IMG/VR virus record: IMGVR_UViG_3300038954_000520 | Location: 1 to 30,168 of that record | From: a virus | Length of the DNA stretch: 30,168 nucleotides | Reading direction: 5' to 3' (one strand) | The notes under the pieces: model-generated | What the model was told of the DNA's origin: nothing | Seen by the model: only the letters and a program-made list of their open reading frames with translations | The model's database searches: none | Position numbers and translations under genes: made by a program | Part shown: positions 5,607 to 25,879 of the stretch, piece after piece | Position numbering within the stretch: position 1 is the first letter of the stretch | Layout: each line of letters opens with the position of its first letter

Positions 5607-6431
5607 ATGAAACGGTTTACATTTAAACAATTTATTGCGGTGGTGTTTTTGTTTTTGTTTGCAGTTGGTGGATGGGCGCAGACCACGTCGGAATATCGAA
5701 ACGGCGTTTTGGTGTTTTACGACAAGGGCAGCGATGAAACCATCTACCCAATGGCGCGGGTGAAATACTACGAAGAATTTACTCAAACTGATACATTTGG
5801 CGGCTATGTATCTGGTGCAACTCCGACTTCTCACTTGACCTTTACAGGCGTGAACGGCGCTGAATTCACCATTGTATCGGCTACTGACGGCGAAAGCCGA
5901 ATGACCACCGGTTCGGCGGATGACGATAATGTGGAGTTGGCCACAGAGTTGGTGTGGCGGGCTTCGCAATCGATTACGGCGGAGGCTCGAATTAAATTAT
6001 CGACTACAGCATTGGGATTTAATTTCGGTTTCAGCGACGCCATCACAGAAGGCGCGGACGATTTGGCTTTTGAAGTGGATGTGGACGGCGCGACTGGCAC
6101 CAGCAACGCCAGCAACGCGGCTTTGATTGTTTCGGACGGCGATCAGACCAGCAATTTGATTCGCGGGATAGCGGTAGATAGTGATACCGACGGGACATTG
6201 ACTAGCAGCGGTATTTCTGCGGATACCGAGTGGCATCTGTATCGCGTGGAGATCAATACTGATGGCGATGTTTCATTTTGGGTGGACGGTGATCATTTTT
6301 ACACGGCAGAGTCTGCGATTACTTTGAATGCGCCATTGTGTGTTTATATGGGAGCCATCAATAGAAACAGTTCGGCCGGCGCTTCGACGATGGACGTGGA
6401 TTACATTTGGGCCTGGCAAAAGGACCGTTAA
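5607..6431 (+). CDS. Signal-peptide protein with lectin-like (LamG-type) beta-sandwich pattern
   Basis: The start at 5607 is chosen because AAAGGA lies 6 nt upstream and the N-terminus is then a clear Sec signal peptide: Lys-Arg, a hydrophobic core IAVVFLFLFAVGG, and GWA|Q as probable cleavage site near residue 24. A longer in-frame start at 5562 would bury it. The mature part (about 250 residues) is beta-rich. It has SITAEARIKLSTTALGFNFGF, LAFEVDVDGATG, and EWHLYRVEINTDGDVSFWVD followed by an MDVDYIWAWQ end, the usual order of a concanavalin/LamG-like jelly roll. Such domains bind glycans. It lies between capsid and connector genes, an unexpected place for an exported protein. A virion-surface or host-surface lectin is the best guess. 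Confidence 0.65.
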   Translation: MKRFTFKQFIAVVFLFLFAVGGWAQTTSEYRNGVLVFYDKGSDETIYPMARVKYYEEFTQTDTFGGYVSGATPTSHLTFTGVNGAEFTIVSATDGESRMTTGSADDDNVELATELVWRASQSITAEARIKLSTTALGFNFGFSDAITEGADDLAFEVDVDGATGTSNASNAALIVSDGDQTSNLIRGIAVDSDTDGTLTSSGISADTEWHLYRVEINTDGDVSFWVDGDHFYTAESAITLNAPLCVYMGAINRNSSAGASTMDVDYIWAWQKDR

Positions 6432-6449
6432 GGGGTCAGGGGAACGGTG

Positions 6450-6890
6450 ATGAAATCTAAATTTTTTATTGTTTCCATATTAAGCTTTTTGGTGGTGGCG
6501 GGGGCGTATCAGGTTTTTGCGGCGCAGAGCGTGACCTTCACGTATCGCGATTGGCCTTCGGTGAATCGGATGCGGTTTGTGGTGCAGAGCGCGACCGATG
6601 GAACGGTGAGTTTTGCAGTGGCGTCGGCTTCGGGATCGATCGATGGCCGAATCATGGGATTTACTTTGGAGCATGACGACACGGCCACACCCACCAATCA
6701 ATACGATGTGTATCTGCGTGATTCAAGCGGATTGGATTTGCTGGCCGGCAATGGGGTGGATATGGCGACCAGCGCCGACCAGGTGATTTTCAATTCGACG
6801 ATGGGTGCGGGATCAAGCGAACCGGTAACGTTGAAGATTGAAAACGCGGGCGATACCAAAAAGGCAACAGTTACTGTTTTTTGGAGATAG
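6450..6890 (+). CDS. Small signal-peptide protein related to phage structural proteins
   Basis: 146 residues from the ATG at 6450 (a GTG lies just before it), with AGGGG about 8 nt upstream. The N-terminus is a Sec signal peptide: MKSKFF, then a hydrophobic core to VFA|AQ, cleaved near residue 25. The mature domain (GRIMGFTLEHDDTATPTNQY, then DVYLRDSSGLDLLAGNGVD) resembles short beta-rich proteins often found among head-tail genes of phages, with a closing ENAGDTKKATVTVFWR strand pair. It is immediately upstream of the head-tail connector gene. A decoration or adaptor role is inferred. The export signal is the odd part, since head assembly occurs in the cytoplasm. Confidence 0.65.
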   Translation: MKSKFFIVSILSFLVVAGAYQVFAAQSVTFTYRDWPSVNRMRFVVQSATDGTVSFAVASASGSIDGRIMGFTLEHDDTATPTNQYDVYLRDSSGLDLLAGNGVDMATSADQVIFNSTMGAGSSEPVTLKIENAGDTKKATVTVFWR

Positions 6891-6900
6891 GCGCAACTCG

Positions 6901-7494
6901 ATGATACAAGGCCATTATTCGCTTGTGCGTACCGAAGATCCTACCGGTGAACTGGTTCTGTTGGGAGAAGCAAAAAACCAGGTTCGACAGGATTTGGATC
7001 ATGAGGACGCCGAGATTCAAGCGTTTATCAATACAGCCTATGAAAAGGTTGAGCAAGACGCACGGCGATCTTTTTTGACGCAAACGTGGAAATTGACGCT
7101 TGATCGTTGGCCGGACCGGACTTTGTTTGTGCCCATGCCGCCTTTGCAAAGCGTGACATCGTTGACCTATGTGGATAGCGCCGGTGATTCAAACACGTTG
7201 GTGGAAGGCACGGATTACGATGTGGATACGCTGTCCGAGCCGGGCCGGATATACCCCAGTTATAACAAGGTATGGCCGAGTGCGCGACTACATGAAAATG
7301 CAATCACGCTGATTTACAAGGCGGGTTATGGCGCCAACGCCAGTGATGTTCCCAAAAAATACAAGCAGGCCATGCTGCTTTTGATTACACACTGGTATGA
7401 AAATCGCGGCATTTTGGGGCCGAACGTGGTGAAAGAGATCCCCGAAGCCTATAAGGTGTTGACCTTGTGTGACCGGGGATCGTATATCGTTTAG
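6901..7494 (+). CDS. Head-tail connector protein (gp6-like, phiE125 gp8 family)
   Basis: 197 residues from the ATG at 6901; GGAG and AGG lie 8-18 nt upstream. The N-terminal part is alpha-helical with LGEAKNQVRQDLDHEDAEIQAFINTAYEKVEQ, the hallmark of connector proteins that dock under the portal ring and begin the head-tail interface. FLTQTWKLTLDRWP followed by PMPPLQSVTSLTYVDSAG and a GTDYDVD strand is highly typical of the phiE125 gp8 and RcGTA gp6 families. The C-terminal helix (AMLLLITHWYENRG) is also typical. It starts a conserved block of four connector and terminator genes. Confidence 0.9.
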   Translation: MIQGHYSLVRTEDPTGELVLLGEAKNQVRQDLDHEDAEIQAFINTAYEKVEQDARRSFLTQTWKLTLDRWPDRTLFVPMPPLQSVTSLTYVDSAGDSNTLVEGTDYDVDTLSEPGRIYPSYNKVWPSARLHENAITLIYKAGYGANASDVPKKYKQAMLLLITHWYENRGILGPNVVKEIPEAYKVLTLCDRGSYIV

Positions 7495-7504
7495 GAGTGA
7501 ACTG

Positions 7505-7840
7505 ATGGCGAAGGTTCGTGCGGGGGAGTTGTTTGAGCGGGTTCAGTTTTGGCGGGCGGTGCCGTTGAAGGATCAACAAGACCAGTATGAGAAATGGCTG
7601 AACCCGATCGCGGCCAAGGTCGACCAGCGCCAGGGGCGCGAAGAGTTGGTGGATTGGGCGATCGTTACGACCGATCAGGTGACTTTGTTTACGATCCGCT
7701 ACACCAACGCGGTTGACCGGAACATGCTGGTCGAGTGGCCGATCGATTCGGGGGATAAATACAAGATCGAATCGATCGATCAGATTGGCCGCCGGGAAGG
7801 CTTGGAGATTCGCGGGGAATTGATTACAGGGCGGTACTAA
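7505..7840 (+). CDS. Head closure / head-tail adaptor protein
   Basis: 111 residues. The start at 7505 follows AGGAGTG by the usual distance. The sequence has the layout of SPP1 gp16/RcGTA gp7-type adaptors: ELFERVQFWRAVPLKDQQDQYEKW, then a beta strand set with AKVDQRQGREE, TIRYTNAVDRNMLVEW and YKIESIDQIGRREGLEIRGE. These proteins form the ring that plugs DNA after packaging and receives the tail. The gene follows the connector by 10 nt. Confidence 0.87.
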   Translation: MAKVRAGELFERVQFWRAVPLKDQQDQYEKWLNPIAAKVDQRQGREELVDWAIVTTDQVTLFTIRYTNAVDRNMLVEWPIDSGDKYKIESIDQIGRREGLEIRGELITGRY

Positions 7841-7869
7841 AGACCTGGGAGAGCGCGGCGGGGTTTTGT

Positions 7870-8301
7870 ATGACTTTTAATGCGAGGGTGCGGGGGTTAA
7901 AGCAATTGCAGGCAACGCTTCGCACGTTGCCGCGAAAGATTGAGACCGGGGCGGTGCGGTCGAGCGTCCGGGCCGGGGCTGGTGAGATCCGGGATGAAGT
8001 CAAGCGGCATGCAGAATATAAATCAATAAAAAAGGCAATCGCCGTACAACCGCGCAAAAAACGCGGGGGGCGTTTCCGGGCAACGGTGGGGATCCGCACG
8101 ACAGGGCGCAACCGGGCTCCACACGCGCACTTGATTGAGTTTGGAACCAAAGAGCGGGTGCAGAAAACGACGGGGCGGCGAACGGGGCGGATGCCTGCGC
8201 GTCCCTATTTTGAACCTGCGGTAGAGGCTTCGCAGGAAAATGCGATTCAAGTGTTTTTGAAAAAAGTCCGCTCGTATATTTTGACTAAGTTGGGGCGTTG
8301 A
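7870..8301 (+). CDS. HK97 gp10 family neck/tail protein
   Basis: 143 residues, basic. It has the family pattern: RVRGLKQLQATLRTLPRKIE at the start, RSSVRAGAGEIRDEVKRHA, a beta strand with GIRTTGRNRAPHAHLIEFGT, then MPARPYFEPAVEASQENAI and a C-terminal helix. The HLIEFGT and RPYFEPA motifs are the best markers of HK97 gp10-like proteins, which take part in neck formation and tail attachment. The upstream ribosome site is weak. The next gene begins 1 nt after its stop. Confidence 0.88.
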   Translation: MTFNARVRGLKQLQATLRTLPRKIETGAVRSSVRAGAGEIRDEVKRHAEYKSIKKAIAVQPRKKRGGRFRATVGIRTTGRNRAPHAHLIEFGTKERVQKTTGRRTGRMPARPYFEPAVEASQENAIQVFLKKVRSYILTKLGR

Positions 8302-8302
8302 T

Positions 8303-8701
8303 ATGAGTTTGGAAATTGAATTGCGGGATCGGTTGTTGGCGGATGCGGCTATTGAAGCCAAGGTGAACGACCGGGCGTATGCGGTGTTTTTGCCGGAAGG
8401 GGTCACCAACGATTCGTTTACCTATGAACGGGTCCGGTTGAACGATCAGGAACGGGCATCGGATATGGAGGGCGAGGCCGGTCCGCAAAAAGTTTATGTG
8501 CAAATTGCCAGTTGGTCGAAGTCGTATACTGGAGCGCAGGAACTGGACGCGGCAGTGGCGGCTTCGCTGAGCGAGTTTTCGGGTTTGTTGGATACGATCA
8601 CTGTTCAAGGGATTTTTGACCAGGGCGCGGTTGATGATTTTGAGGACGCGACGGAGTTTTATCGGATTATGCGGCAGTTTGAAATTTGGTTTGTCGACTA
8701 A
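8303..8701 (+). CDS. Tail terminator / completion protein, DUF3168
   Basis: 132 residues. SLEIELRDRLLADAAIEAKVNDRAYAVFLPEGV at the N-terminus, then TYERVRLNDQE and a VYVQIASWSKSYTGAQEL strand-helix, are standard for DUF3168, the RcGTA gp8/lambda gpU-like proteins. These cap the end of the tail tube and join it to the head. The gene is coupled to the gp10-like gene (1-nt gap). The end FYRIMRQFEIWFVD is the last strand of the fold. Confidence 0.87.
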   Translation: MSLEIELRDRLLADAAIEAKVNDRAYAVFLPEGVTNDSFTYERVRLNDQERASDMEGEAGPQKVYVQIASWSKSYTGAQELDAAVAASLSEFSGLLDTITVQGIFDQGAVDDFEDATEFYRIMRQFEIWFVD

Positions 8702-8778
8702 CGTTTCTTGTCTAAACCAGGGAGGCGGGAATCTGGAAGGACAGGAAAACGGAAAAAACATAGAAGTGAGGTGGCGTT

Positions 8779-9228
8779 ATGAAGTGGATTGATGTTTTGC
8801 TGGCGGTTTTGGTGGTGTTTGCTGTGTTGATGGTTGCCGGTTTGCATGGGCAGTTGCAGGCGACCGAGTTGACGGCGCAGGATGCGGAAGGGCCTTACCC
8901 GTCGGTGTTGCCGGTTCCGACAAACGATTTGGATATTTCGTTTACTGCGTGGCCCAATACGGCGGTCGGTGATGTGACCTTTGAGATCACGGGCAGGGAA
9001 TTGCTGATTGTGAAAAACAGCAACACGGTTACCGGCGCCACGGTGACTTTTGAATCTCAACCGATATTGGGCCGGTCTGGATCGATTGAAAATTATTCGC
9101 TTGGAGCTGGGGATATTGCCGTATTTTGGTATGGCGATAAGCGGGGCTGGGCGAATTCTTCAAATATTGCCAGTGTGTCGGCGGGGACCACGGCGGTGGA
9201 ATTTGCCTTGGTGCAGGTGGATCTGTAA
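8779..9228 (+). CDS. Small signal-peptide protein with phage structural-like domain
   Basis: 149 residues with a GAGGTGG ribosome site. The first 29 residues form a signal peptide: MKWIDVLLAVLVVFAVLMVAG hydrophobic core and a likely cut after LQA. The mature part has ELLIVKNSNTVTGATVTFES and SLGAGDIAVFWYGDKRGW, a pattern (N-x-s, VTVTxxS, laaGxiavf) that I associate with short beta-rich phage structural proteins next to tail tube genes. It sits between the tail terminator and the tail tube. As with the two earlier secreted genes, export of a virion-module protein is unusual. Role unknown; decoration is a guess. Confidence 0.6.
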   Translation: MKWIDVLLAVLVVFAVLMVAGLHGQLQATELTAQDAEGPYPSVLPVPTNDLDISFTAWPNTAVGDVTFEITGRELLIVKNSNTVTGATVTFESQPILGRSGSIENYSLGAGDIAVFWYGDKRGWANSSNIASVSAGTTAVEFALVQVDL

Positions 9229-9295
9229 CGACGGACAAAAGTTGTGATTAAGCCGCGTTTGGCGCGGATAACGGCGATAAGGAAGGTGGAAAACG

Positions 9296-9730
9296 ATGTC
9301 GAATGAAGCTTCGATTGGAAAAGGCACGCTTTTTAAGCGGGAGGATGCGGTCGGCGGGGGCGCGTTTACCACGATCGCCCGGTTGAACAATGTTACCCAT
9401 CCACGGGCGGCGAATGAATTCGATGGTACGTCGATGGAATCGACCACGGTTGAGCCGGTCAAAGATATGGTTGACAACCAGACGTTGAACCTCGAGTTGC
9501 ACTTTGTACCCGGTGAAACCAGCCAGAAATCGTTGGAAGACGATTTTAATGACGAAGATCACACCACCGGTCGCAAGTATCGATTGGTGTACAACGATAC
9601 GGCGAATACGTACCGGGAGTTTACCGGTTATGTGGCTTCGTTTGAAACCGGGCACCCGGTGCGGGGCTTGCAAACGGCGACGGTGGGGATCCGGGTTGTG
9701 GGCGATATTACTGAGGGCACTGGCGGATAA
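9296..9730 (+). CDS. Major tail tube protein
   Basis: 144 residues, with GGAAGGTGG before the ATG. The pattern GKGTLFKREDAVGGGAFTTIARLNNVTHPRAANEFDGTSMES, then a WxxY-like loop region and FTGYVASFETGHPVRGLQTATVGIRVVGDI, is characteristic of phage tail tube proteins of the TP901-1/RcGTA gp9 type. Stacked hexamers of it form the tube. The last strand SFETGHPV...ATVGIRV closes the beta-sandwich. It is followed by the tail chaperone pair, as expected. Confidence 0.9.
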   Translation: MSNEASIGKGTLFKREDAVGGGAFTTIARLNNVTHPRAANEFDGTSMESTTVEPVKDMVDNQTLNLELHFVPGETSQKSLEDDFNDEDHTTGRKYRLVYNDTANTYREFTGYVASFETGHPVRGLQTATVGIRVVGDITEGTGG

Positions 9731-9786
9731 ATAGTTGTCTGTACCAGGAAGTCAGCAAGGTTGGGGAAACGGCGGAGGAATTTGTT

Positions 9787-10170: not shown

Positions 10171-10172
10171 CG

Positions 10173-10472
10173 ATGGTTTTGGGTTATGCCTCGCCCACGA
10201 AGATGTTGCGGGAAATGACGGTTGCGGATTGGGTGGGCTGGCAGGCTTTTGACCAGGTCAACCCGATCGGGGTTCAACATTTGGAGACGTTGTTGGCGTT
10301 GTTGGTGACGGGCTATTACCAGGTGCATTCGAAATCACATTACACGGTCAGCGATTTCTACCCGCCTTGGAAGCGGGAGGCGGAGTTTGAGGAATTGACG
10401 CCGGAAGAAGAAATTGCGCGATTTGACGCAATGACGCGGGGTTGGGGGAAGAAGAGCCAGAGTGAGGATTGA
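10173..10472 (+). CDS. Tail assembly chaperone, downstream (T-like) frame
   Basis: 99 residues from its own ATG, but probably made mainly as the -1 frame extension of the upstream chaperone. The frame is open upstream to 10131, and no Shine-Dalgarno sequence precedes 10173. The sequence KMLREMTVADWVGWQAFDQVNP and the short YPPWKREAEFEE followed by TPEEEIARFDAMTRGWG resemble the second tail chaperone gene before tape measures in GTA-like and lambdoid phages. It ends 4 nt before the tape measure start. Confidence 0.75.
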   Translation: MVLGYASPTKMLREMTVADWVGWQAFDQVNPIGVQHLETLLALLVTGYYQVHSKSHYTVSDFYPPWKREAEFEELTPEEEIARFDAMTRGWGKKSQSED

Positions 10473-10476
10473 TTGA

Positions 10477-14891: not shown

Positions 14892-17800
14892 GTGACGGTG
14901 ATTGGGCAGATTGGGCTTTTGAATCGGGCGGGCGCTGTTGGCGGGGCCGGGGTATCGGCCGGGCTTTCGCCGATCGGTGTGCTGTCGGCGGCGTATTTTG
15001 GCGCCAGTTTGCTGTATAACATTTTTAATCCAAAAAAAATTGAAGGGCCTCGCTTGGAAGATTTGACCTTGCCCGACACCGGCTTTGACCAGGTGCAGGC
15101 GTGGACGGTGGGGACGGTGCCGCAAAACGGATACATTATCTGGCCCAGTGACGCGGATACGCTGATCACGGAGAACAAGCACACCCGCAAAGAAGGCGGG
15201 TTTTTCGGGTTGGGGGCGACTGAGATTACTTTTTACACCTATAAGGCCACGTTTTCGGTGGCGTTTGGGGAGGGCACGGCGGATATTCTTAAATTGTGGG
15301 CGTCGGACGGCAAGGTGATTTACGATGTGACTGATGACGCCGATGACGCCATGTTGCAGAAATCGCGGCAGATGCTGGCCGATGGCCGATTGTATTTGTT
15401 TGATGGATCTGAGAGCCAGGGCGAAGACCCGGTGATGGCAGCTGAGCATGGAAGTGGTAATAATCCCCATTATATGGGTGTGGTGCGGGCCACGTTCAGC
15501 GGATTGTTTCTTGGTAGTTTTGGAAATCAGCTCCCGGGTATGAAGGCGCTGGTGAGCGAGCGCAATATTGAACGCACTTCGCAACTGAAGGCGGTATCGG
15601 GTTTGGGGGATGCGTTCAAGAAGAATCGCGTTTCCGCCGGGTTTGTGAAATGGAATGATCAGTGGTTGCTAATGGGGGGATATAACACGGCGGCCAGCGC
15701 CGATGTGACCATGATTTTTGCCAGCGATAACGGGCGTGAATGGAATTTGCAATCCAATACCAATTGGGCTTTCCCCTCGCAGACGCAACGCTCTCATTTT
15801 GTGCCGCTGGTCTACCAGGGTGCCTTGCGGGTATTTGGCGGCAAGCAGGCGGGGGCGAGTTACGACGGCGATGCCGCGGGCAATGGCATTGCCATGATTC
15901 ATGACGGACAAATTTGGCGGGTTGAGCAGTTGATAGCGAATGTGTTCCCACGTCACGATTATGCGGCTGCCGTTTTCACCCATCCGACTTTGGGTGAGAT
16001 TATGCTTTTGGTTGGCGGACGGGTTGAGGGATCGGTGAGCAAGCCGCCGGGGAATTCGGCGAATGATTTCTATCGAAACATTTGTTATTCGAACGTAACC
16101 AGTTTATCGAACGGCCAGCATTGGCAGGAATTGGCGGCGGACGCCGGGGCGGAGTATCGCACCGGGGCGACTTTGCTGACGCACACGCCCAGCGGGGGCG
16201 GAAGTGATGAACTTCTTTTGATCGGCGGCCAGCACCGGGAGATTGGCGGCGGGACGGATTACAGCAACGCGGTGTATGTTGCCGATTTTAGTGCCTCGCC
16301 GATTTTTAGCCGGCGGAGCGATGAGTTGACCGGGTTGGGTGTGGGGGCGTGGGAGATCCACGGCGCAGTGAGTAAGGATAGTGTTTTGACGGTGTTGGCC
16401 AAGCGGGCCAGCGATAGCAAGTATTATTTGTGGAAGTCGAGCGACGACGGCATGACCTGGACGGTGTGGAACAATGGATCGTTTGCAGTGGATTCGTTTA
16501 GCGATGACGGGGTTGATACCACCGCGGTGGTGAGCGGGGATCAAAGCGCGATCGCGACCAACCAGGCGCATGTGGTGGGGTCGCCAAGTGATGATGATAT
16601 TTACGACATTAGCAGCGCCACTTATTCGAGCAGCACGGACACCACCAGCATTGTGCTGCCGGGGGTTTTGGATTTGACCGGGGCGACGATCTATCACAAC
16701 CCAATTACACCGTTGGATGCGGCGGATTTTGATTTGGATAACCGGCCAGTGTTTGCGGAGATCTTCGGCCAATTTATGGTGATCGGCGGGGCGGGCTCAA
16801 CCGACGGCCAGACCGGCGTGTATATCACACGGAAAACAGTCAAACATTTGCCGGTGAACATCAACAATAATTTGATAGAGCGCATTCGTACACGAGTAAA
16901 CGAAAACAAAGATTCGTTTTATCAGCTGAGCGCCAGCGACCTGGTGACGGATGATTTGGCGGATGAAACCATTGCGGGGATGCGGATCGATGAGCAAATT
17001 ACGGGCCGCGGCATCTTAGAGCCTTTGCGGCAATACAAACAGTTTGATGCGTTCCGCTCGGATGGGAAGATCAAGTTTAAGACGCGGGGCGGATCGAGCG
17101 CGGCCACCATTAACGCCGAGCAGTTGGGGTCGCGGCGGTTGAACGGCCAGGCGGTGGACCGGGTGGAGAGTGATATCCTGCCGCTGAACGAAATGCCCAA
17201 ACGGGTGGTGGTGCATTATATCGATGAAGAATTTGATTGGGGGATCACCAATCAGCATAGTCAAATCATCAACAGCAAAAGCCAGGACACGAAAGAAATT
17301 CGGGTGCCGATCGTGGTGACGAAAAACGAGGCCGCGGTGATGGCGGCGGTAGCGGCGCAGGAAATGCGGCAATCGGCGCGGGCGAATTCGTTTCCCGTGC
17401 CCAAGACTTACGCCAAGTATGAGCCGGCGGACCTGGTGACGATCGAAGAATATGACGGGCACGGGAATGTGGAGGTGTCAACCTTGGCGCGCCTGGTGAC
17501 GGTGGACCGGAACGGGATGATGGGCCGTTGGGATACCGTGGTGGAGCGGGTGGATTTGTATAGCCCGACGGTGCAGCCGGTGGATCCACCGAGCAACCCG
17601 GCTCCGGTGGTGGCTACGCCAAGCGCCTATGTGAGTTTCATCGATGGGCCGATCACTGACCGCGAAGACGATGATTTTGGCTTTTACGTCGTAGCAGGCG
17701 CGAATAAAGACGATTGGGAAGGCGTTGAGATATTTCAAGACAACGACGGCAATTTCGGGGATGATACGCGGATTTTGCGGATCAACAAAAACGGGATATT

Positions 17801-18650
17801 GGGCAATGCTGTGACGGCGTTGGGGGAAGATGTTACCACATATGATTTTGATTACAACCGCACGGTGGACGTGGAAGTGGTGGTGGGATCGCTGGAAAGC
17901 AAAACCGAGCGGGAAGTGTTGGACGGGGCGAATGAGGCGATCTTGGGGGATGAGATTATACGTTTTGTGACCGCGACTTCTTTGGGCGGCGGCCAGTATC
18001 GCTTATCGGGATTGTTGCGCGGTCGGCGCGGCACCGGGTGGGCCACCGGCGATCATGAAGTGAGCGAGCGTTTCGCCCTGCTGAGCACCGCGGTGCGGGT
18101 GCGGGCCAAGGACAGCGCGAACATTGGGGCGGCGCTCCGTTACCAAGTGCGTACCGTGGGTGAGCCTGCCGGGATTGAGTTTGGGTTTACTAACACGGGG
18201 ATCGGCAAGAAGCCCTATGCGCCGGGATCGATCAAGATGTTTCGATTCGGCGAGCCCAAAACCATCGGAAACCGTTTGTATGCAACGGGCAGTTGGTGGA
18301 TCGAGTGGGAGCGGCGTATTCGCGGGTTGAACAGTTGGGCGGGCGGTTTCCCGCTGCCTAGGGGCGAAGAAGAGTTGGTGTACAAGTTGGAGTTTTTGGA
18401 TAGTAGTGAAACGGTGCAGCATACGCAGATTGTGATCGACAACCGGGGGGTGTCGGTGACCGGGCGGCCGTTTTTTGTTTACCCGGTTGATACGTTTGAC
18501 TATGTGGACGAATTTGGCGATACGCAAAAGCAGCACGGGCAGACGGATGCGGATGCGTTTGGGTCTATCCAGGATCGTTTGCATGTGAAGATTTATCAAT
18601 TGGGGGCGCTGGGCTGGGGTTATGCGGCGGAGAAGGTTGTGACGGCTTAG
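14892..18650 (+). CDS. Tail tip protein (gpJ / RcGTA gp15-like) with inserted Kelch/Asp-box beta-propeller
   Basis: 1252 residues from a GTG start; AGGA lies about 10 nt upstream. The N-terminal part (about 45-225) is the usual tip domain: EGPRLEDLTLPDTGFDQVQ, GTVPQNGYIIW, TFYTYKATFSVAFGEG, then the LWASDGKVIYDV strand and NQLPGMKALV. From about 245 to 640 comes a repeat region with Kelch-type LLMGGY, RVFGGK, MLLVGGR, LLLIGGQ and MVIGGAG strands. Between them are Asp-box-like SDNGREW, HDGQIW, SNGQHW and SSDDGMTW, the latter close to SxDxGxTW. The hub/phage-tail_3 part then resumes (IAGMRIDEQITGRGILEPLR, KIKFKTRGG), and the C-terminus carries the GTA gp15 hallmark GDEIIRF followed by YRLSGLLRGRRGTGWATGDH. 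A TIM barrel, seen at the comparable place in GTA gp15, is absent. It should contact the host receptor. Confidence 0.88.
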   Translation: MTVIGQIGLLNRAGAVGGAGVSAGLSPIGVLSAAYFGASLLYNIFNPKKIEGPRLEDLTLPDTGFDQVQAWTVGTVPQNGYIIWPSDADTLITENKHTRKEGGFFGLGATEITFYTYKATFSVAFGEGTADILKLWASDGKVIYDVTDDADDAMLQKSRQMLADGRLYLFDGSESQGEDPVMAAEHGSGNNPHYMGVVRATFSGLFLGSFGNQLPGMKALVSERNIERTSQLKAVSGLGDAFKKNRVSAGFVKWNDQWLLMGGYNTAASADVTMIFASDNGREWNLQSNTNWAFPSQTQRSHFVPLVYQGALRVFGGKQAGASYDGDAAGNGIAMIHDGQIWRVEQLIANVFPRHDYAAAVFTHPTLGEIMLLVGGRVEGSVSKPPGNSANDFYRNICYSNVTSLSNGQHWQELAADAGAEYRTGATLLTHTPSGGGSDELLLIGGQHREIGGGTDYSNAVYVADFSASPIFSRRSDELTGLGVGAWEIHGAVSKDSVLTVLAKRASDSKYYLWKSSDDGMTWTVWNNGSFAVDSFSDDGVDTTAVVSGDQSAIATNQAHVVGSPSDDDIYDISSATYSSSTDTTSIVLPGVLDLTGATIYHNPITPLDAADFDLDNRPVFAEIFGQFMVIGGAGSTDGQTGVYITRKTVKHLPVNINNNLIERIRTRVNENKDSFYQLSASDLVTDDLADETIAGMRIDEQITGRGILEPLRQYKQFDAFRSDGKIKFKTRGGSSAATINAEQLGSRRLNGQAVDRVESDILPLNEMPKRVVVHYIDEEFDWGITNQHSQIINSKSQDTKEIRVPIVVTKNEAAVMAAVAAQEMRQSARANSFPVPKTYAKYEPADLVTIEEYDGHGNVEVSTLARLVTVDRNGMMGRWDTVVERVDLYSPTVQPVDPPSNPAPVVATPSAYVSFIDGPITDREDDDFGFYVVAGANKDDWEGVEIFQDNDGNFGDDTRILRINKNGILGNAVTALGEDVTTYDFDYNRTVDVEVVVGSLESKTEREVLDGANEAILGDEIIRFVTATSLGGGQYRLSGLLRGRRGTGWATGDHEVSERFALLSTAVRVRAKDSANIGAALRYQVRTVGEPAGIEFGFTNTGIGKKPYAPGSIKMFRFGEPKTIGNRLYATGSWWIEWERRIRGLNSWAGGFPLPRGEEELVYKLEFLDSSETVQHTQIVIDNRGVSVTGRPFFVYPVDTFDYVDEFGDTQKQHGQTDADAFGSIQDRLHVKIYQLGALGWGYAAEKVVTA

Positions 18651-18680: not shown

Positions 18681-18697
18681 CCTACATGGAGGAAAAA

Positions 18698-19603
18698 ATG
18701 GAACGGATCACAAATGTTTCGGTGTTAATAATTATATTGTGTGTAGTGTTATTTTCACTAGGGTGTTTGACGCAGACGGTTTGGGCGGATGAAACGGACC
18801 GGCTGGGGTTGGAGAAGTTTGAGGAGGGCGGTGGAAGCCCGTGGGTGACCGGGAACCGGGCGTTAAATAAGTTGGATGCTTTAGTTTTGCCGGTGGTGGA
18901 TGTTTACCCGGCGGATGCTTCGCCGGTGGTGAATTCGGCCACTGATGGGAGTGTGTTTATTGTGCCAGATGGGGGTGAGGGGGATTGGAGTGGGAAAGAC
19001 GATCAGATTGCAATTGTGACGGATTCAGTTTTGGGTTTTTACGATTTTATTGAACCGGCGACAGGTTGGGCGTTTTACGTGCAGAGCGGAACGGCGGAAG
19101 GGTCGGTGTTGTTTTATGACGGCCAGGATTGGGGGCCGAAACAACGGACCTGGACGCGGGGATTGTTGCTATCTGAATCAAGAAGCGGATTCAGCCAATT
19201 TGCGGCGCAAGACCGGATTGTGCAGGAAGCGACGCCCAGTACGGCGTTTACGGTGATGCATTTGGTGCGCAACTTGGAATCGGGAGATAACTATTACGTT
19301 TTTACGGTGAATGATTCCGGCCCAAGTTTGGAACTTTACAACGGGGATGGCGCAAACGTGGATGTGCGGCTGACGACCAGGGGAGACAGCTTTATAAAGG
19401 GCACTGAAGTTTCATTTGGAGATAACCATTCAGCGGATGAGGTTCTGGATGTATCGGGCGTAATTAATTTGCGAGAGCGGTATACCAGTCCATTAGATCC
19501 CGACGAAGGCGCTGGGAAGATTTGGTTGGATACAGCTGGCAATTTTCGCTTTTTATCGAACCCATCAGGAACTGTTAAAGAAGCGACAGTTGAACCCAAT
19601 TAA
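18698..19603 (+). CDS. DUF2793-type phage tail protein with N-terminal signal peptide
   Basis: 301 residues from ATG 18698, which has GGAGG 6 nt upstream; an earlier in-frame start at 18659 is less likely. Residues 1-30 are a signal peptide: MERITNVSVLIIILCVVLFS, a short polar stretch and TVWA|DE. The next about 120 residues follow DUF2793: TDRLGLEKFEEGG, ALNKLDALVLPVV, GDWSGKDDQIAIV, YDFIEPATGWAFYVQ and VLFYDGQDWG. DUF2793 is a common C-terminal tail-gene domain in GTA-like phages and is normally without a signal peptide. The C-terminal half ends with GKIWLDTAGNFRFLSNPSG, typical of tail fibre-associated proteins. A fibre or fibre-base role is likely; export is unusual. Confidence 0.75.
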   Translation: MERITNVSVLIIILCVVLFSLGCLTQTVWADETDRLGLEKFEEGGGSPWVTGNRALNKLDALVLPVVDVYPADASPVVNSATDGSVFIVPDGGEGDWSGKDDQIAIVTDSVLGFYDFIEPATGWAFYVQSGTAEGSVLFYDGQDWGPKQRTWTRGLLLSESRSGFSQFAAQDRIVQEATPSTAFTVMHLVRNLESGDNYYVFTVNDSGPSLELYNGDGANVDVRLTTRGDSFIKGTEVSFGDNHSADEVLDVSGVINLRERYTSPLDPDEGAGKIWLDTAGNFRFLSNPSGTVKEATVEPN

Positions 19604-19612
19604 GGTGAACGT

Positions 19613-19987
19613 ATGGCAACGGAATCGCGGAGTGTTTTGGTTGGCGGGGGGAATGTGGTTTTGTCGGCCGCTTCGGGTGGTGGGTTGCAGGGGGAGTTGC
19701 ATGTGGTGGCCAAGGATGCGCCCAGTTTGAGTAATGAGGTGGTGACCGAAGCGACGCAGATTGATTTGTATGGGATTAAGGGGCACTACTTTGAGGCGGG
19801 ATCGACCAAAGTGTTTTGGAACGATGGCAGCCGGGCGCGGCGGAAAACGAGCGAGACTACGGCGCTGGACAATTGGACCTATCAGGAAAAGGACAACGGG
19901 ATTATTGAGTTTCGTTGGGGATTAAACGCAGATGAGCCGATTCAGATTGATTATACTATTGCTTCTCAGCCTGCCGTTGTGGAGTAA
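19613..19987 (+). CDS. Hypothetical 124-residue protein in adhesin cluster
   Basis: Begins MATESRSVLVGGGNVVLSAA, with an AAGGTG ribosome site. It is a beta-rich, Gly- and Ser-rich protein with no signal peptide, unlike the other members of this cluster. The middle reads YFEAGSTKVFWNDGSRARRK and the end is FRWGLNADEPIQIDYTIASQ. I do not recognise a family. The end overlaps the next gene by 56 nt in another frame, so the two are translationally coupled. A structural or chaperone role for the neighbouring secreted proteins is possible but not shown. Confidence 0.6.
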   Translation: MATESRSVLVGGGNVVLSAASGGGLQGELHVVAKDAPSLSNEVVTEATQIDLYGIKGHYFEAGSTKVFWNDGSRARRKTSETTALDNWTYQEKDNGIIEFRWGLNADEPIQIDYTIASQPAVVE

Positions 19988-20534
19988 TGCCCAGCGCCCG
20001 CCAGCCATTGATTATGGCGACCGGGAGATTAAGGGCGAATTGAACGTGGTGGGCGACGCGACCGCGAGCGCGTTTCATGGCAATGTGGGCGCGGGCATTT
20101 TTGACGACGCCGCCGGCAACTACTCCACCGACACGGTGGACGCGGCCTTTGCTGCTTTGGCGGGATCGATCGACTTTGCCAGCGGGGTCAGCGAGTTTAA
20201 GTATCGGGCGGAGATTGCGGCAGCAACCAGCCAAATTTACGTAGATCTCGGTGAGAATAAATCTCTCAAGAGGGACTCGCCGATTTTGTTTACTGTAAAA
20301 GGTTCGCCGTTTCAGCGGATTGGCGAGACGTTTCAGGTTGTGCAGGCCAGCGACGGCGAGGATTTGTATGTATCGCTGTCGAGCGGATATGAGTGGAGCG
20401 CGGGAGATTTGGTTCAGGTTCGGGCGTTTTTGGAAGATCAGGACTCGATTGCAAGCGCCACTGGCACGGCGGATGGGTTGAGTGATGGGTTGAGGATTAG
20501 AGGATTGGAACGGATAGGAGCGGTACGATGGTAG
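19932..20534 (+). CDS. Signal-peptide protein of the adhesin cluster
   Basis: 200 residues; the start lies inside the previous gene and has GGGG about 12 nt upstream. Residues 1-21 are a textbook signal peptide (MSRFRLIILLLLSLPLWSNA|Q). The mature protein starts RPPAIDYGDREIKGELNVVG and contains DATASAFHGNVGAGIFDDAAGNY, a layout seen at the start of phage fibre-like proteins with repeated short beta strands. Later IYVDLGENKSL and EWSAGDLVQVRAFLEDQDSI suggest a beta domain. Composition is GC-rich and Ala/Asp/Gly-rich. The stop overlaps the start of the next gene by 7 nt. Function unknown; a fibre or appendage component is likely from context. Confidence 0.65.
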   Translation: MSRFRLIILLLLSLPLWSNAQRPPAIDYGDREIKGELNVVGDATASAFHGNVGAGIFDDAAGNYSTDTVDAAFAALAGSIDFASGVSEFKYRAEIAAATSQIYVDLGENKSLKRDSPILFTVKGSPFQRIGETFQVVQASDGEDLYVSLSSGYEWSAGDLVQVRAFLEDQDSIASATGTADGLSDGLRIRGLERIGAVRW

Positions 20535-20857
20535 TTATTCAACGATTGATAATGATTTTTTTGATTTTGTTGGTTGGCTTGGGGATATATCAGGCCGGGG
20601 ATTGGAGCAGGAGCGCCGAGGCACAGCCGGCGGAGCCGCCGGGGCAGGCGAAGAAAATTGAGAAGCGCGAGCCTCGAACGTTTGTTACAAATCGAGCCTA
20701 CAAGCCGCAGGAATGGCCGGAACTTACCGGCCAGCAAAAAGCGCAGATTGCTCGAGATCGGAAAAATCGTGTGCAACAACTGAAAGCGCAAGGTCGCAAG
20801 GTTGCGAAGGGTGGAGGAGTGAAGCCCAGGGGCAAGGGAAAAGGGAGAAATAAATAA
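20528..20857 (+). CDS. Small exported protein with strongly basic tail
   Basis: 109 residues. The N-terminus is hydrophobic (MVVIQRLIMIFLILLVGLGIY) and is followed by SAEA|QP, so cleavage or membrane anchoring are both possible. The rest is unusual: highly basic, with KKIEKREPR, then LTGQQKAQIARDRKNRVQQL, and a Gly/Lys-rich end (KGGGVKPRGKGKGRNK). Such a tail could bind nucleic acid, acidic polymer or membrane. The start overlaps the upstream gene by 7 nt and the stop overlaps the next ATG by 1 nt. No family recognised. Confidence 0.6.
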   Translation: MVVIQRLIMIFLILLVGLGIYQAGDWSRSAEAQPAEPPGQAKKIEKREPRTFVTNRAYKPQEWPELTGQQKAQIARDRKNRVQQLKAQGRKVAKGGGVKPRGKGKGRNK

Positions 20858-23379
20858 TGAATCAAGATAAATTTGCTGCTCGTTTTTGGTGTACGCTTTT
20901 TTGGATATTGTCTTTTCTGTTTTTGCTGAATATGGTTTTGCAAGTCTTCGCACCAACCGCAAGCGCTCAACAAACAGTCACGTTTTCGGCCGCTGACCGT
21001 GACACTGACTTTGTGCAAATCGATAGCAACCATTGGCAAGCAGCAAGCCCAAATTATACCTATACAGTGAATCGATCACTGGAAGCCTCGCTTGAGATTG
21101 CAGGTGCCTCGTTTTCGCTTGAGCCTACAATTACGTATACAGATGACGGTCTTATTTATTACGAGGCCGGAATTAAGAACGTGACTGCACCCATTATCGG
21201 CGGTCTGCACCCAAAACCGGAAAGCGCAATCCTCTGGCACAACTCTTACGATTTTGGCCGTTTTCAGATGAGGACCTTTCCAGGAAAGATTATTCAGGAA
21301 TTTCATTTTAAGGGTCAAGCAGGTGATGTAATACCCGCTACAGCGACACATATTAGTAAACTTGAAGCATTTCTCACCGATTGGGATGGTGATATTTATG
21401 CAGATGGAGTGTTGATTGAAGCAACTGCTTCTATTCGGGCTGCAACGATGCGATTCATTAAAGAAAATTTCAGTTTTACTTTTGATGCCGTGTCTGCGAA
21501 ACGAGTCTCAGTAGAAGATGGAGTGAAAGGATGGTATAAGTGGGATGGATCAGCCGGAACATTAATTTCTGAAGTCACAAATTTTGCTGATATTGTAAGT
21601 ATTGACCCCACGATCACAATCCAGGATACCAGTAATACGGGGGATACTTATTTTAACAGTGGTGCAACCACCACTAACTATGGAACAGACACTCTATTGA
21701 GAGTCGGGGAGGATAATAACCCGTTTGATTACCGAGGGGCGGTTGGTTTTAATATCGACTTGAGTGGGTCGGTTTCCTCAATAGAACAAGCTACCTTGAC
21801 TATGGTTATCGACTCAGTCCAAGGGGCCGGGCAATCTGCGGTTGATTTGTATGCCCTAGAGGAAACCACCAACATCGAGACAACTGGAACTTGGGCCAAC
21901 CAACCCTCAATTCGAGAAACAATTGCTACAGGTGTTTCAAGCGCAAACTCAGCAGGGGCTACCGATGAATTTGATATTCTTTCCAGTAGTTTAATTACTT
22001 CTATTAATAGTTCTAATTGGCATTGGATTCGTATAGACGGAAACAATCTTCCGAATGATGGAACAGATCGGCGGATCTGGTATTATTCGGAAGTAAACAC
22101 GACCGCCGAGGAATATGATTTTTTGGTAGAGATTACTTACACTGAAAGGGGGCCAGAAAAAGTTAGCGCACGGCGTACGGATTCTAATTTATTTGTGTAC
22201 AGCAGTTCTACTTTTTCTGGAACACCGACTGTGTTTATAAAAAGTTCCACTGATTCTCTTTTTGAATTAACGCCGACTTTAATTGATACGACATTAACAA
22301 ACGTTATTGAATATATGCTTCCAATTTATCCTGGAATCTCGGATAACGAGACAATTTTATGGGCGAGTGACGCTATATCAGCGACTGCATATATGATGGA
22401 ATTATCCAATCGCGGGAGTGCTTCGGTGGACACTGACTCTATTGCGAATGCGGTGTGGCAGGAGATTCAGGCGGATCATAGTAGTATATCGGGCAGCGCT
22501 GCGGATTATTTAGCGAATCTTGTGGCGCGAAGCACCGAAGTTGCAAACGCCAGCGAATCCATCGGCGCGGATACAGATTGGCTGATTGCGGGGATTGCTA
22601 CGGATGTGACGCCGTATGTTCAGCATGCTGGCAGTCTGGCTCCAGCTAACGGGATCAATCTTATCGATAATTTTACCGACGTTCGTTTTTCGGACGGCAG
22701 CACTGTAGAATCTATTGATATTATGGGGTTTTCGCAGAGCGGGGCGGCAGTGAATTGGAATGCCGGGCTTTACGAATTAGAGCCGGGCGGGACGTACACC
22801 TCAATCATTCCGCTGGACGCCTCGTTTACATATTCACAAGTTGCGTTGGAAGGGACCTGGTTGCACCGTTGGTCAGCCGAAGAGCCTTCGATCACGCTTG
22901 CAAAAACGCAAGCGATTATCCTCAACGCCAGCGGGGCGGACGGTATTACCGAGAATGCGATTGCGGGGCCGCAGACGCTGCCTACGCAAACTATTACGAT
23001 TTCGGATCAACTGACGCAAACTAAATTCCTGCAAACGATCGAGAGCGCTACTAGCGCGATTGAAGATGACCTGTTTGATCTTTCGTATGGGATCGTCAAG
23101 CAGGTCACTGCCGTTGTGGCTAAAACCACGGTTGCCCGCACGACGGCCACTGTTTCTTCCACTTCATCAATTCGTTTAGTACAGAACAAATTGGTAGGGA
23201 TCGATGTTACGCGGACACAGATTGACGGGAGCGATCAAACCAAGTCGATGCTTTTCGACTACTCTGACGCGACCGATACGCGGTTTAACGAATTGGAGTT
23301 GACCGGCCAGACGGTGACCGCTTGGGCGTTGGCCAACTTATCGGCTTCGCAATACGATTACCCTGGAAAGGATTTTTAG
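20857..23379 (+). CDS. Large secreted fibre-like protein with DNRLRE-type domain
   Basis: 840 residues. A signal peptide is visible (about 1-38: basic start, FWILSFLFLLNMVLQVF, then ASA|QQ). The part from about 40 to 250 is an unassigned beta-rich domain (TVTFSAADRDTDFVQID; YDFGRFQMRTFPGKIIQEFHF). Residues about 253-430 follow the DNRLRE (CBM96-like) pattern: ITIQDTSNTGDTYFNSGATT, NYGTDTLLRVGED, GFNIDL, EQATLTMVI and VDLYALEE. Residues about 526-558 carry SIANAVWQEIQADHSSISGS, a sequence typical of phage tail fibre proteins. The first 525 codons are AT-rich; the rest matches its GC-rich neighbours, so the gene looks mosaic. Adhesin or fibre role is inferred. Confidence 0.7.
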   Translation: MNQDKFAARFWCTLFWILSFLFLLNMVLQVFAPTASAQQTVTFSAADRDTDFVQIDSNHWQAASPNYTYTVNRSLEASLEIAGASFSLEPTITYTDDGLIYYEAGIKNVTAPIIGGLHPKPESAILWHNSYDFGRFQMRTFPGKIIQEFHFKGQAGDVIPATATHISKLEAFLTDWDGDIYADGVLIEATASIRAATMRFIKENFSFTFDAVSAKRVSVEDGVKGWYKWDGSAGTLISEVTNFADIVSIDPTITIQDTSNTGDTYFNSGATTTNYGTDTLLRVGEDNNPFDYRGAVGFNIDLSGSVSSIEQATLTMVIDSVQGAGQSAVDLYALEETTNIETTGTWANQPSIRETIATGVSSANSAGATDEFDILSSSLITSINSSNWHWIRIDGNNLPNDGTDRRIWYYSEVNTTAEEYDFLVEITYTERGPEKVSARRTDSNLFVYSSSTFSGTPTVFIKSSTDSLFELTPTLIDTTLTNVIEYMLPIYPGISDNETILWASDAISATAYMMELSNRGSASVDTDSIANAVWQEIQADHSSISGSAADYLANLVARSTEVANASESIGADTDWLIAGIATDVTPYVQHAGSLAPANGINLIDNFTDVRFSDGSTVESIDIMGFSQSGAAVNWNAGLYELEPGGTYTSIIPLDASFTYSQVALEGTWLHRWSAEEPSITLAKTQAIILNASGADGITENAIAGPQTLPTQTITISDQLTQTKFLQTIESATSAIEDDLFDLSYGIVKQVTAVVAKTTVARTTATVSSTSSIRLVQNKLVGIDVTRTQIDGSDQTKSMLFDYSDATDTRFNELELTGQTVTAWALANLSASQYDYPGKDF

Positions 23380-23381
23380 AT

Positions 23382-23819
23382 ATGAAAAATATTGTATACA
23401 CGTCAATTATTCTTGTGATGGGATTTCTGCTCGCGCAAGCCAGCGAACCGCTTGGAGACCTGGCGCGGCTGGCGCAACAGAATGGAGTTCTGTTTTCCGA
23501 TGGCCGGACGACACTCAGCGGAACGCTAAGCAACGCTGATGGAATGCTCGCTATTGATGGCGCCAACGCTACCGTGAAAGCCGACGGGCTCATTCTCAAT
23601 CTCATGACCAGCGACACCGAGGACGATTTGAAGGCTCTTATGGAGAACGGCGAAATCCGCCGGTGGAACGGGGGCGCCGAGGAAACCGCTTATTTGCTTC
23701 GCAATGGCCGGTTGATTCCGGCGAAACTTACCGCGTTTGATCCGGCGACGCATACCGGCAATTGGACGTTGATTAAGTTGGGCGGGGAACTATACGTGTT
23801 TGACCGAAAGCAGGCTTAA
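23382..23819 (+). CDS. Signal-peptide protein, 145 residues
   Basis: The start at 23382 is chosen because GGAAAGGA lies 9 nt upstream and the N-terminus is then a signal peptide (MKNIVYTSIILVMGFLLAQA|S). The mature protein begins EPLGDLARLAQQNGVLFSDG and has a repeated short-strand pattern, GTLSNADGMLAIDGANATVK, then ADGLILNLM. The C-terminal part includes EIRRWNGGAEETAYLLRNG and a TLIKLGGELYVFDRK end. The DNA is GC-rich. The stop overlaps the next gene's ATG (TAATG). No family recognised; context suggests an adhesin-cluster component. Confidence 0.6.
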   Translation: MKNIVYTSIILVMGFLLAQASEPLGDLARLAQQNGVLFSDGRTTLSGTLSNADGMLAIDGANATVKADGLILNLMTSDTEDDLKALMENGEIRRWNGGAEETAYLLRNGRLIPAKLTAFDPATHTGNWTLIKLGGELYVFDRKQA

Positions 23820-25879
23820 TGCGATTTACAATTTTTTTTTATATAATTTTGATCTTAACAAATGTGTCCGGAGCCGCTTCGTTTGACGATGGCGGCCCGG
23901 TTACGTTGTATGATGACGCGCAAGAGAATTACTTTGGGGATGCACCGGGGGATGGGATTTACCAAGCGGGCAGCGGGTCGATTGAGATTCTAACCTACGG
24001 CTATACGCCGCAAGCGCCTTCCTGGTCGCGCCCTGCGACCACTTCATTTACTGATATCGACAGTAACGATCCATTTCGAATTCTCGCAACTTACCCAATC
24101 AGTTGGACGGATATTGACAACATTTTTGATTTTGACGGCGACGGCGACAAAGACGCGGTGCAGTCGGTGCAGGTCCGCTGTTATGTAGCCTGGTCTTTTT
24201 CCGGCGGGTGGCAACTGGCCGGAACGTTTGAAAGTTTCGCAGTGAACTATTCGGATATGTTGCAATTGTGGATTGTGACACCGCAGAATAGCGGAATTGC
24301 TGACAGTTCGTTTCGCATCCGCTGGAACGTTTATGTTTCGCCGCTTGATTTTGCTACCGATCCAGGCACCTATTCGAATAATGAGTATTCACCGGTATGG
24401 ACCTGGTCAACTCCGGCAACGCCAACACCGACCTTCACGCCCTCGAACACTCCAACACCGGTGCCGACGGCGGAACCGACACCGACACCGACTTTCACGC
24501 CGACCGCAACACCGACCGCAACCAACACGCCGACACCGCGCCCGGCAATGCCCAATCCGAATTTAGGCTATCCGGACAATGGGGCGCTGAGCAATGGCAC
24601 GTTTCGTTTTACGGTCTTGGAAAATGGTGGCGGGCCAAACGACCCCTACTTACATTCGGCATTCAAAGAATTTCGTGTATGGCTGGCCGTTTATAACGGA
24701 ACGTGGCCACAGCCTGGTGATTTTCAGTTTCGATCGTCGAACACCGGTACAGCGGGCAATCCCACGATTCACAAAATTACTGGATTGTCGCCGGGTGATA
24801 TTTTTCAAATCCGGGTTCAAATTATACCGACTTCGGAAAGTGGCTATACACTTTCGGATCGAGTGGATTCGGCGATTTTTGTGGTGCCGCAACCGCCGAC
24901 GGCGACGCCAACCGCCACAGCAACGCACACACCTACCTTTACGCCGACGCCGACTGAGCCGCCCGACCCGACGGCAACCAACACGCCGAGTCACACACCG
25001 ACGCCGACCGATACGGCCACGGCCACCGCGACACCGACACCGACGGACACGGCCACACACACGCCGACCTTCACTCCAACGGATACGCCACCGCCGGATG
25101 CGACCGCGACACCGACACCGACGGCCACCTTCACGCCGAGCCACACTCCGACACCATCGAACACGCCGACGGCCACCAACACGTTCACTCCGACTAGCAC
25201 TTTCACCTTTACGCCGACCTTTACCAACACGCCGTTGTCGAGCAATCCAACGGCCACCTTTACGCCAACATTCACACCGAGTAACACGTTTACGGCCACG
25301 CCGACTTTTACGCCGAGCCATACGCCGACGGCGACCCATACCCACACGCCACAGCCGACCGATCAGCCGACCCATACGCCGACCTGGACGCCATCAGCAA
25401 CCAAGGCGCCAACCGCGACACCGACGCCGCAGTATGTGCAGGAGCCCCTCGAATTCCTGGCGGCCAGCGCGGTTGTGGGGATCCCGACCGAGACTTCGAT
25501 TCAATGGGGATTGCCTGACCAGGTTCTATTCAACAACGAGGCGGACCGGGCAGACATTCGCGCCGTGACAGGGGTGGCGGATAATGTGGACGCGGCTAGC
25601 GCGTTTATCGTTGGACAGTTTGCCGAGCCGCAGGAAATCGCGAGCAGCACGATCTTGCAGCCGGGCAACACATACACGATTTGGGGATCAACGTTTAACT
25701 TGCCGCGCAGTGCTCGCAGCGCCTGGCTGCGGATTGAGTACACAATGGCGGAGTTGTCGCCGACGCCGACACCTACGCCGGTGGATACACCGACACCGAC
25801 GCCTACGCCGATTCCGCCCGGCTGGGGCGTGTTCGAAAAGAGCGGCGGAGTTTTATATGAATGGTTGAAATCGATTTAG
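23819..25879 (+). CDS. Secreted Thr/Pro-repeat (stalk-like) protein
   Basis: 686 residues. A signal peptide at about 1-20 ([20 protein letters not shown]) is followed by an N-terminal domain containing a Ca-binding-like [10 protein letters not shown] (about 103-112). Two low-complexity blocks of TPTPTFTPS-type repeats (about 197-243 and 359-540) flank a middle domain (about 244-358), which may be fibronectin III-like ([24 protein letters not shown]). The C-terminal domain (about 541-645) includes NPRSARS-like and [11 protein letters not shown] parts. A last short repeat ends in [20 protein letters not shown]. Such Thr/Pro linkers are long, extended and often O-glycosylated. A stalk carrying two binding domains is the simplest reading. 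Confidence 0.65.
24895..25437 (+). repeat. Thr/Pro-coding low-complexity repeat
   Basis: About 540 bp of imperfect repeats of ACGCC, ACACC and ACTCC units coding for TPT/TFTPS/TPTAT motifs within the large secreted protein. A second, shorter block lies at 24410-24545. The DNA is Cys- and Gly-free in translation, and its opposite strand has long spurious open frames rich in Val and Gly. Length variation between strains is likely by slipped replication. Confidence 0.8.

Follow-up and report, generated by a model that had tools for sequence, protein, structure and literature searches.

The nine genes considered here lie in the late operon of a tailed phage represented by IMG/VR virus record IMGVR_UViG_3300038954_000520 (30,168 bases, treated as a fragment and called the window below), and all nine are predicted to encode proteins that begin with an N-terminal export signal. 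The signals occur on candidate head-decoration proteins and on most of the tail-fibre cluster. Export of core structural proteins, as the first-pass annotation could be taken to imply, did not hold up, since capsid, connector, tube, tape measure and tip proteins all lack a signal. We put at roughly 0.5 the probability that accessory virion proteins (decoration and fibres) pass through Sec and then, outside the cytoplasm, become part of the virion or come into contact with it; lysis would be the simplest occasion. This reading is based on the signals themselves, on how well they obey the signal-peptidase rule and how precisely they are added to virion protein families, on their recurrence in several phages and on the position of the genes in the late operon.

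Nine late genes with predicted signal peptides

The nine genes are listed below; a slash marks the predicted cleavage site, and lengths are in amino acids (aa).

5607..6431, + strand: signal peptide 1-24 (..GGWA/QTTSEY) and mature part of 250 aa with an N-terminal SEYRNGVLVFYD motif; candidate head decoration protein or lectin
6450..6890, + strand: signal peptide 1-24 (..YQVFA/AQS) and protein of about 122 aa, all-beta by its model; candidate capsid cement/decoration protein
8779..9228, + strand: signal peptide 1-28 (..QLQA/TELT) and protein of about 121 aa, between the tail terminator and the major tail protein; the search for homologues found none
18698..19603, + strand: signal peptide 1-30 (..VWA/DETDRLGL) and DUF2793 tail-fibre protein (Pfam DUF2793 2e-15; tail-fibre PHROGs)
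19932..20534, + strand: signal peptide 1-20 (..WSNA/QRPP) and fibre-like protein with a GELNVVGDATAS motif; start overlaps the preceding gene
20528..20857, + strand: hydrophobic start (signal or anchor) and short basic protein; least certain of the nine
20857..23379, + strand: signal peptide 1-37/38 (..TASA/QQTV) and 803-aa protein with a CBM96/DNRLRE carbohydrate-binding domain (Pfam CBM96 7e-13; NCBIfam DNRLRE 3e-9)
23382..23819, + strand: signal peptide 1-20 (..LAQA/SEPL) and 125-aa protein of no assigned family
23819..25879, + strand: signal peptide 1-18 (..NVSG/AASF) and protein with a long Thr/Pro stalk (33% T+P)

The signals had been called at these nine starts by the first-pass annotation, and the call was confirmed: all start codons are present and the frames are open. 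Each N-terminus opens with a basic N-region, followed by a hydrophobic core that spans 10 or more uncharged residues (mean Kyte-Doolittle hydropathy 2.6-4.0); a small residue stands at -1 and a small or aliphatic one at -3. To score genes uniformly, a strict home-made grammar was used (basic start, uncharged 10-residue core with mean hydropathy ≥2.6, small-x-small site and a ribosome-binding match), calibrated on control genes from 80 portal-related and 79 DUF2793 contigs. This Sec/signal-peptidase-I grammar passed 8 of the 32 window genes, and these 8 belong to the nine. Of the control genes, it passed 5 of 1,146 from the portal-related contigs and 10 of 563 from the DUF2793 contigs (several of these 10 resemble spanins or lysis lipoproteins); the window value compares with 15/1,709 for the pooled controls (Fisher p=2e-9). 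The gene that failed, 19932, did so solely because a proline breaks its core; its homologue in G006, the closest relative (capsid 53% identical to that of the window), likewise starts with a hydrophobic stretch.

Shine-Dalgarno matches of 4-6 bases precede 5607, 8779, 18698, 20528, 20857 and 23382, and weaker ones (3 bases) precede 6450, 19932 and 23819; 19932 and 23819 are coupled to the upstream gene, and the start of 6450 comes after an overlapping GTG. By itself, a cleavage matrix trained on E. coli gave poor discrimination. The core structural genes of the window scored low on it except for the tip protein, which has a glycine-rich hydrophobic start. The claim that the signals are real is founded on the hydrophobic cores and on the homologues, not on the matrix.

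No further transmembrane (TM) segment was found in the nine mature parts (maximum 19-aa Kyte-Doolittle value ≤1.21 in all), whose N-termini are neutral to acidic. Cysteine is scarce in them (2/2,612 residues vs 21/5,186 in the signal-less structural proteins, p=0.013). No twin arginine (Tat route) was seen among the nine, and no C-terminal sorting signals were found by NCBIfam. A lipoprotein route was considered for 18698 and rejected, its LGC being a poor lipobox that is missing from the G006 homologue. The 20528 product has a mature part of 77 residues, a long gap between core and cleavage site, and a weak Rz-like-spanin score (E=0.09-0.12). For 8779, 20528, 23382 and 23819 the signals are predicted from the sequence grammar by itself. 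Sec export and cleavage by signal peptidase I are predicted properties of the nine.

Head genes with and without signals

The 5607 and 6450 families are two head genes located between the capsid gene and the head-tail adaptor, and both have members with and without a signal. Both head genes bear signals in the window, G001, L211 and L214. In the 5607 family, the signal is present in the window and in G001 (L002:11865), the homologue in the latter matching Laminin_G_3 at 1.3e-6. Two homologues without a signal, L021:11612 (a Rhodoblastus prophage; E 1e-33) and L006:5453, open directly with the family's SEYRNGVLVFYD-type motif: MGTRSRYEAGVLRFFDD in L021 and MVVHSEYRNGALVFYD in L006, as against ..GGWA/QTTSEYRNGVLVFYD in the window.

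The 6450 family (n=9) showed the same pattern. Six members bear a signal, ending FA/AQS in the window, FA/SGS in L002 (G001), LA/QST in L192, VA/GVS in L211, LA/AGS in L191 and similarly in L214, with the small-x-small site directly before the domain in every case; the signal-less members (L006, L188 and L189) begin MAGSI/MAAAV at the same point. Signal-bearing head-accessory genes were located in four further capsid relatives at L191:7811, L192:2905, L211:6709 and 7261, and L214:5433 and 6321. In L191 and L192 just one of the neighbouring head genes has a signal, so that the signal state is gene-specific. Between the two signal-bearing head genes of G001 lies a further gene of no assigned family (L002:12687-13391), to which L013:7791 looks related by eye.

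An AlphaFold2 (AF2) model of the 6450 product was all-beta, with a predicted local distance difference test score (pLDDT) of 71. Its best Foldseek match in the Protein Data Bank (PDB) was 7eel_H, from the capsid of cyanophage Pam1 (E 5e-4, TM-score 0.39); the match to KHP30 was weaker than that to this chain. No PDB chain scored below E 0.6 when sequence homology to a known cement protein was sought. The 6450 product is a candidate capsid cement or decoration protein, possibly of the immunoglobulin (Ig)-like kind, and is not classed with the known cement proteins. Cultured phages searched with the 6450 family and with the G001 LamG protein yielded no match. A scan of genome contigs for a host returned two distant prophages as sole matches, and no 6450-family match was found in genomes sampled from the phyla of their hosts.

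The DUF2793 fibre cluster

The 18698 product matches DUF2793 with 56.9 bits (Pfam curated cut-off 27), and its gene lies directly after the tail-tip gene (14892-18650), an order also found in G006 and RcRhea. Judged from its sequence and this adjoining position, DUF2793 is here a tail-fibre domain. In the primary product it does not stand at the extreme N-terminus, since the 30-residue signal lies ahead of it, and it becomes N-terminal only after cleavage. The extreme N-terminal position is usual for DUF2793 proteins, although it is no part of the Pfam definition, and the signal-bearing departure from it is the finding. Among 80 DUF2793 loci from IMG/VR the signal is missing in 79, G006 being the sole signal-bearing one; where the domain start is covered, nearly all the signal-less loci open within a few residues of the domain, and gp19 of the cultured phage RcRhea starts MEALMAITPNLGLP, without a signal.

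The DUF2793 proteins of G006 and the window are 32% identical, and cleavage would fall at the domain start in both (..VVFA/DTTKRLGL vs ..TVWA/DETDRLGL). The fibre cluster of G006 is the same in layout: a DUF2793 gene with a signal, a 114-aa signal-less homologue of 19613 and an overlapping homologue of 19932 with a hydrophobic start. A TPTPT stalk like that of 23819 also occurs in a predicted exported fibre protein of G006; in the window it is possibly an O-glycosylated fibre stalk. Single-sequence scans with the 18698 and tip proteins gave no matches, nor did a search of cultured phages with the 20857 product.

Another DUF2793 tail-fibre protein was found under a different name: in Paracoccus phage vB_PmaS-R3 (L025; KP162168.1, 41021 onward) it is deposited as 'ribonuclease III'. 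An entry of the same name from Roseobacter phage RDJL Phi 1 surfaced in the fold search, and the misannotation may have spread.

Gain and loss of signals across phages

In G001, whose capsid is 42% identical to that of the window, signals occur on the 5607 and 6450 homologues and on three proteins encoded beyond the tip gene; an S74 intramolecular chaperone forms the C-terminal end of one of these three. G000 and G006, at about 30-50% identity, also retain the combination of signal and fibre. The signal sequence diverges while the domain start stays, which suggests conservation in function rather than in sequence. In these comparisons a virion-module protein gains or loses a signal at its front end and is otherwise unchanged. 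On the capsid tree, the head-signal state changes about 5 times, at least 3 of them forced by supported branches; the 6450-domain tree is too short to resolve. The estimate of events is therefore taken from the capsid tree, whose history the accessory genes, which may recombine, need not share.

The existence of signal-less homologues had been proposed as a sign that the signals are annotation artefacts. Such homologues exist, and the artefact reading was not upheld: they open with Met exactly at the domain, and in the window and further divergent phages an extra cleavable signal with a start of its own precedes the same domain. The signals are therefore genuine and maintained by selection.

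Two further contigs bear on the distribution of such genes. L093 (IMGVR_UViG_3300036774_000098; 63 kb, podovirus-like, with unrelated tail genes) carries two signal-bearing genes, 1212-1841 and 6401-8392. One directly follows a Bbp16-like (PF21190) head gene; a 663-aa signal-bearing protein adjoining the tail tubular gene is by eye a beta-helix tailspike (DFAGVADGVTNNYTAL..), which had no match among cultured phages. L093 is possibly an independent case of signal-bearing virion-module genes. In a prophage contig, a LamG-type protein with a clear signal is encoded among tail genes beside a transposase-like open reading frame (L141:16964-17761) and is probably insertion cargo.

Genomic context in the window

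One rightward late operon comprises, in order, the end of the terminase gene, portal, protease, HK97 capsid, connectors, major tail protein, tail chaperones and tape measure, and continues with DUF2460, a DUF2163-like protein, a tip gene of the gene transfer agent (GTA)/RcRhea type (14892), the fibre cluster and the lysis genes. A strong terminator (27534-27556) follows the lysis genes and precedes an integrase gene; by gene content the window belongs to a temperate siphophage. Genes without a signal that bear on the argument, and the lysis genes, are as follows.

1423..4972, + strand: portal, head-maturation protease and HK97-type major capsid protein (PHROGs: portal 1e-131, protease 1e-54, major head protein 1e-47); no signals
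5029..5514, + strand: 161-aa conserved protein directly after the capsid gene, without signal (phrog_5707, E=5e-7)
14892..18650, + strand: tail-tip/host-specificity protein, without signal (Phage-tail_3, Rcc01698-like; Pfam 1e-19, 4e-20; PHROG tail protein 5e-99)
19613..19987, + strand: 124-aa protein, without signal, between two predicted exported ones (phmmer E 3e-6 to L020; arrangement kept in G006)
25898..27322, + strand: lysis genes (XhlA-like 25898, endolysin 26131, membrane/lipoprotein-like 26674, TM protein 27095)

The portal, protease and capsid genes represent the cytoplasmic head core, and the tip protein is the expected docking site for fibres. The 5029 family sits after the capsid gene in about 14 relatives (the G006 copy is 57% identical), and its product is a candidate cytoplasmic, cement-like head accessory. 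In the lysis region, the 26674-27144 product has a hydrophobic, lipoprotein- or signal-anchor-like leader of 37 residues ending FFVGC/RS; it is a candidate spanin and possibly a tenth exported protein, maybe a lipoprotein.

Proposed completion of assembly outside the cytoplasm, and alternatives

The proposed sequence of events is as follows. The two proteins of the head surface, one protein whose gene lies close to that of the tail tube and most products of the fibre cluster would be made as preproteins, exported by the host Sec machinery and trimmed by signal peptidase I to mature forms opening with the domain that binds capsid or tip. Capsid, connector, tube and tip, which form the core particle, would meanwhile be built in the cytoplasm, where the signal-less 19613 product might, speculatively, serve as a socket on the tip. 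Once holin and endolysin had opened the cell, the particle would bind the exported pool of fibre and decoration proteins that it encounters in the periplasm or on the cell surface, so that assembly would be completed outside the cytoplasm. That the host exports and cleaves these proteins, that they enter the virion and that they do so at lysis is inferred from the genes. Where a signal-bearing protein can be assigned, it resembles a component of the virion's outer side, which faces glycans; none is a core part. Decoration proteins bind finished heads in vitro, as shown for phage L Dec on P22 (PMC7602432), and late addition is therefore chemically possible.

Several points weigh against this reading. 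Virion membership of the nine is itself deduced from sequence, and compatibility with the signal peptidase of the host is assumed. The similarity of 5607 and 6450 to known decoration folds is weak (pLDDT 48 for the 5607-family AF2 model, and the TM-score given above for 7eel_H); 8779, 20528, 23382 and 23819 have no signal-less virion homologue that would prove a structural role; 19613 lacks a signal even though it lies within the fibre cluster; and G006 lacks both head accessory genes, which are therefore dispensable.

That dispensability would also suit proteins that are exported but never enter the virion. Derived from fibre or decoration genes, they would be secreted by the infected cell or lysogen, or displayed on its surface, as adhesins, glycan binders or receptor masks against superinfection. 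This explanation is the strongest of the alternatives, although we regard it as unlikely. The lectin-like and carbohydrate-binding domains (CBM96, LamG), the Thr/Pro stalk and the integrase agree with it, and lambda Lom offers a precedent for an exported protein encoded in a tail region. However, the genes are embedded in the late morphogenesis operon, with gaps around the signal genes of -56 to +92 bases, mostly <20. Consensus scans found no strong intrinsic terminator between them and one promoter match (9/12), inside 5607-6431; by these scans, the signal genes have no strong promoter and terminator of their own inside the late operon, as lysogenic-conversion morons would, and expression in a lysogen is therefore not expected. 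Signal-less members of the same families at the same place in other phages fit a virion role instead, as does a tail-fibre domain encoded beside its tip gene.

A second alternative, that uncleaved signals tether fibres, decoration proteins or the whole assembly to the inner membrane, is improbable. Some cores are long and very hydrophobic (18698, 20528), and the spanin-like score of 20528 points the same way. On the other hand, small-x-small motifs stand exactly at the conserved domain start in the six divergent 6450 homologues and in both DUF2793 homologues, and it is the domain start, not the signal sequence, that is kept. An uncleaved N-terminus would also be expected to block the docking surface: the Pam1 cement protein is a trimer whose N-terminal loop contacts the capsid (PMC9698820), and by analogy a retained signal would obstruct such a contact. 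Among the explanations offered in the first-pass annotation, anchors are thus disfavoured. The best supported is an encounter of the virion with exported decoration proteins or adhesins, either at the membrane or once the cell has lysed; the third, proteins that alter the host surface, is conceivable.

It is similarly improbable that exported host genes were fused or dropped into the operon by mosaic capture, leaving signals with no phage function. The G+C content does fall to about 0.44-0.48 across 20857-23379, and the S74 domain on the G001 protein occurs in cellular exported proteins as well. Nevertheless, the signal-plus-fibre arrangement is retained in G000 and G006, the same gene families bear signals again in divergent phages, and fibre signals without a use would carry a cost. 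An artefact, through misplaced start codons or N-termini that are hydrophobic by chance, has very little to recommend it, for although the Shine-Dalgarno matches are weak at some starts (19932, 23819) and the predictor is home-made, the enrichment over controls is strong, homologues keep a signal despite unrelated signal sequences, and few internal starts with ribosome-binding matches lie near the mature N-termini.

Comparison with known systems

In Ff phages, pVIII and pIII carry cleavable type I signal sequences and undergo Sec export before entering the particle (PMC4823517). The likeness lies in virion-type proteins with cleavable Sec signals, those of the window being known from genes alone; the difference is that Ff particles assemble at the membrane from membrane-anchored coats, whereas the window encodes an HK97-type siphophage with a cytoplasmic core. 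The combination of signal and anchor typical of inovirus coats was not found, the nine mature parts having no anchor, and an HK97 capsid and a tape measure are present. The DUF2793 (PF10983) fibres of Rhodobacter and Paracoccus phages, such as RcRhea gp19, share the domain and the place directly after a GTA-type tip gene, but in the relatives checked other than G006 they have no signal before the domain. Ig-like cement proteins (cyanophage Pam1, KHP30 and Ralstonia GP4) resemble 6450, as modelled, in being small all-beta proteins encoded near the capsid gene; they differ in that no sequence similarity to 6450 was detected and that 6/9 of the 6450 family carry a signal.

Lambda Lom, an outer-membrane protein encoded next to the host-specificity gene J, is a lone barrel moron, while the window has several soluble proteins of fibre and decoration families. 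Some tailed phages likewise use Sec to export endolysins with signal or signal-arrest-release (SAR) sequences (PMC7143992); those are lysis enzymes, whereas in the window the signals are on virion-module proteins and the endolysin (26131) has none.

Implications for tailed-phage assembly

The textbook view is that the whole of tailed-phage assembly takes place in the cytoplasm. No earlier description of cleavable signals on head-decoration or fibre proteins of tailed phages was found in the open-access literature, a search that covered few subscription papers and preprints. The absence of a signal peptide has been used as a mark that distinguishes phage from bacterial surface proteins (PMC6199706). 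We tentatively propose a recurrent and so far undescribed strategy of tailed phages in which the core is built in the cytoplasm, Sec-exported fibres and decoration are added at or after lysis, and signals are gained and lost on the same families. Several benefits of export are likely: carbohydrate-binding fibres would be kept off cytoplasmic glycan precursors, Thr/Pro stalks could be folded or glycosylated in the periplasm, and free fibre or decoration protein could be shed as receptor blockers.

The chance that this is a new mode of assembly is credible. If part of the tailed-phage particle is indeed exported first, the rule that phage proteins have no signal peptide would fail, metagenome studies would misfile phage proteins as host secretome, and modification in the periplasm would become possible for phage particles. 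Families that occur both with and without a signal would offer a natural comparison for when decoration and fibres join the particle.

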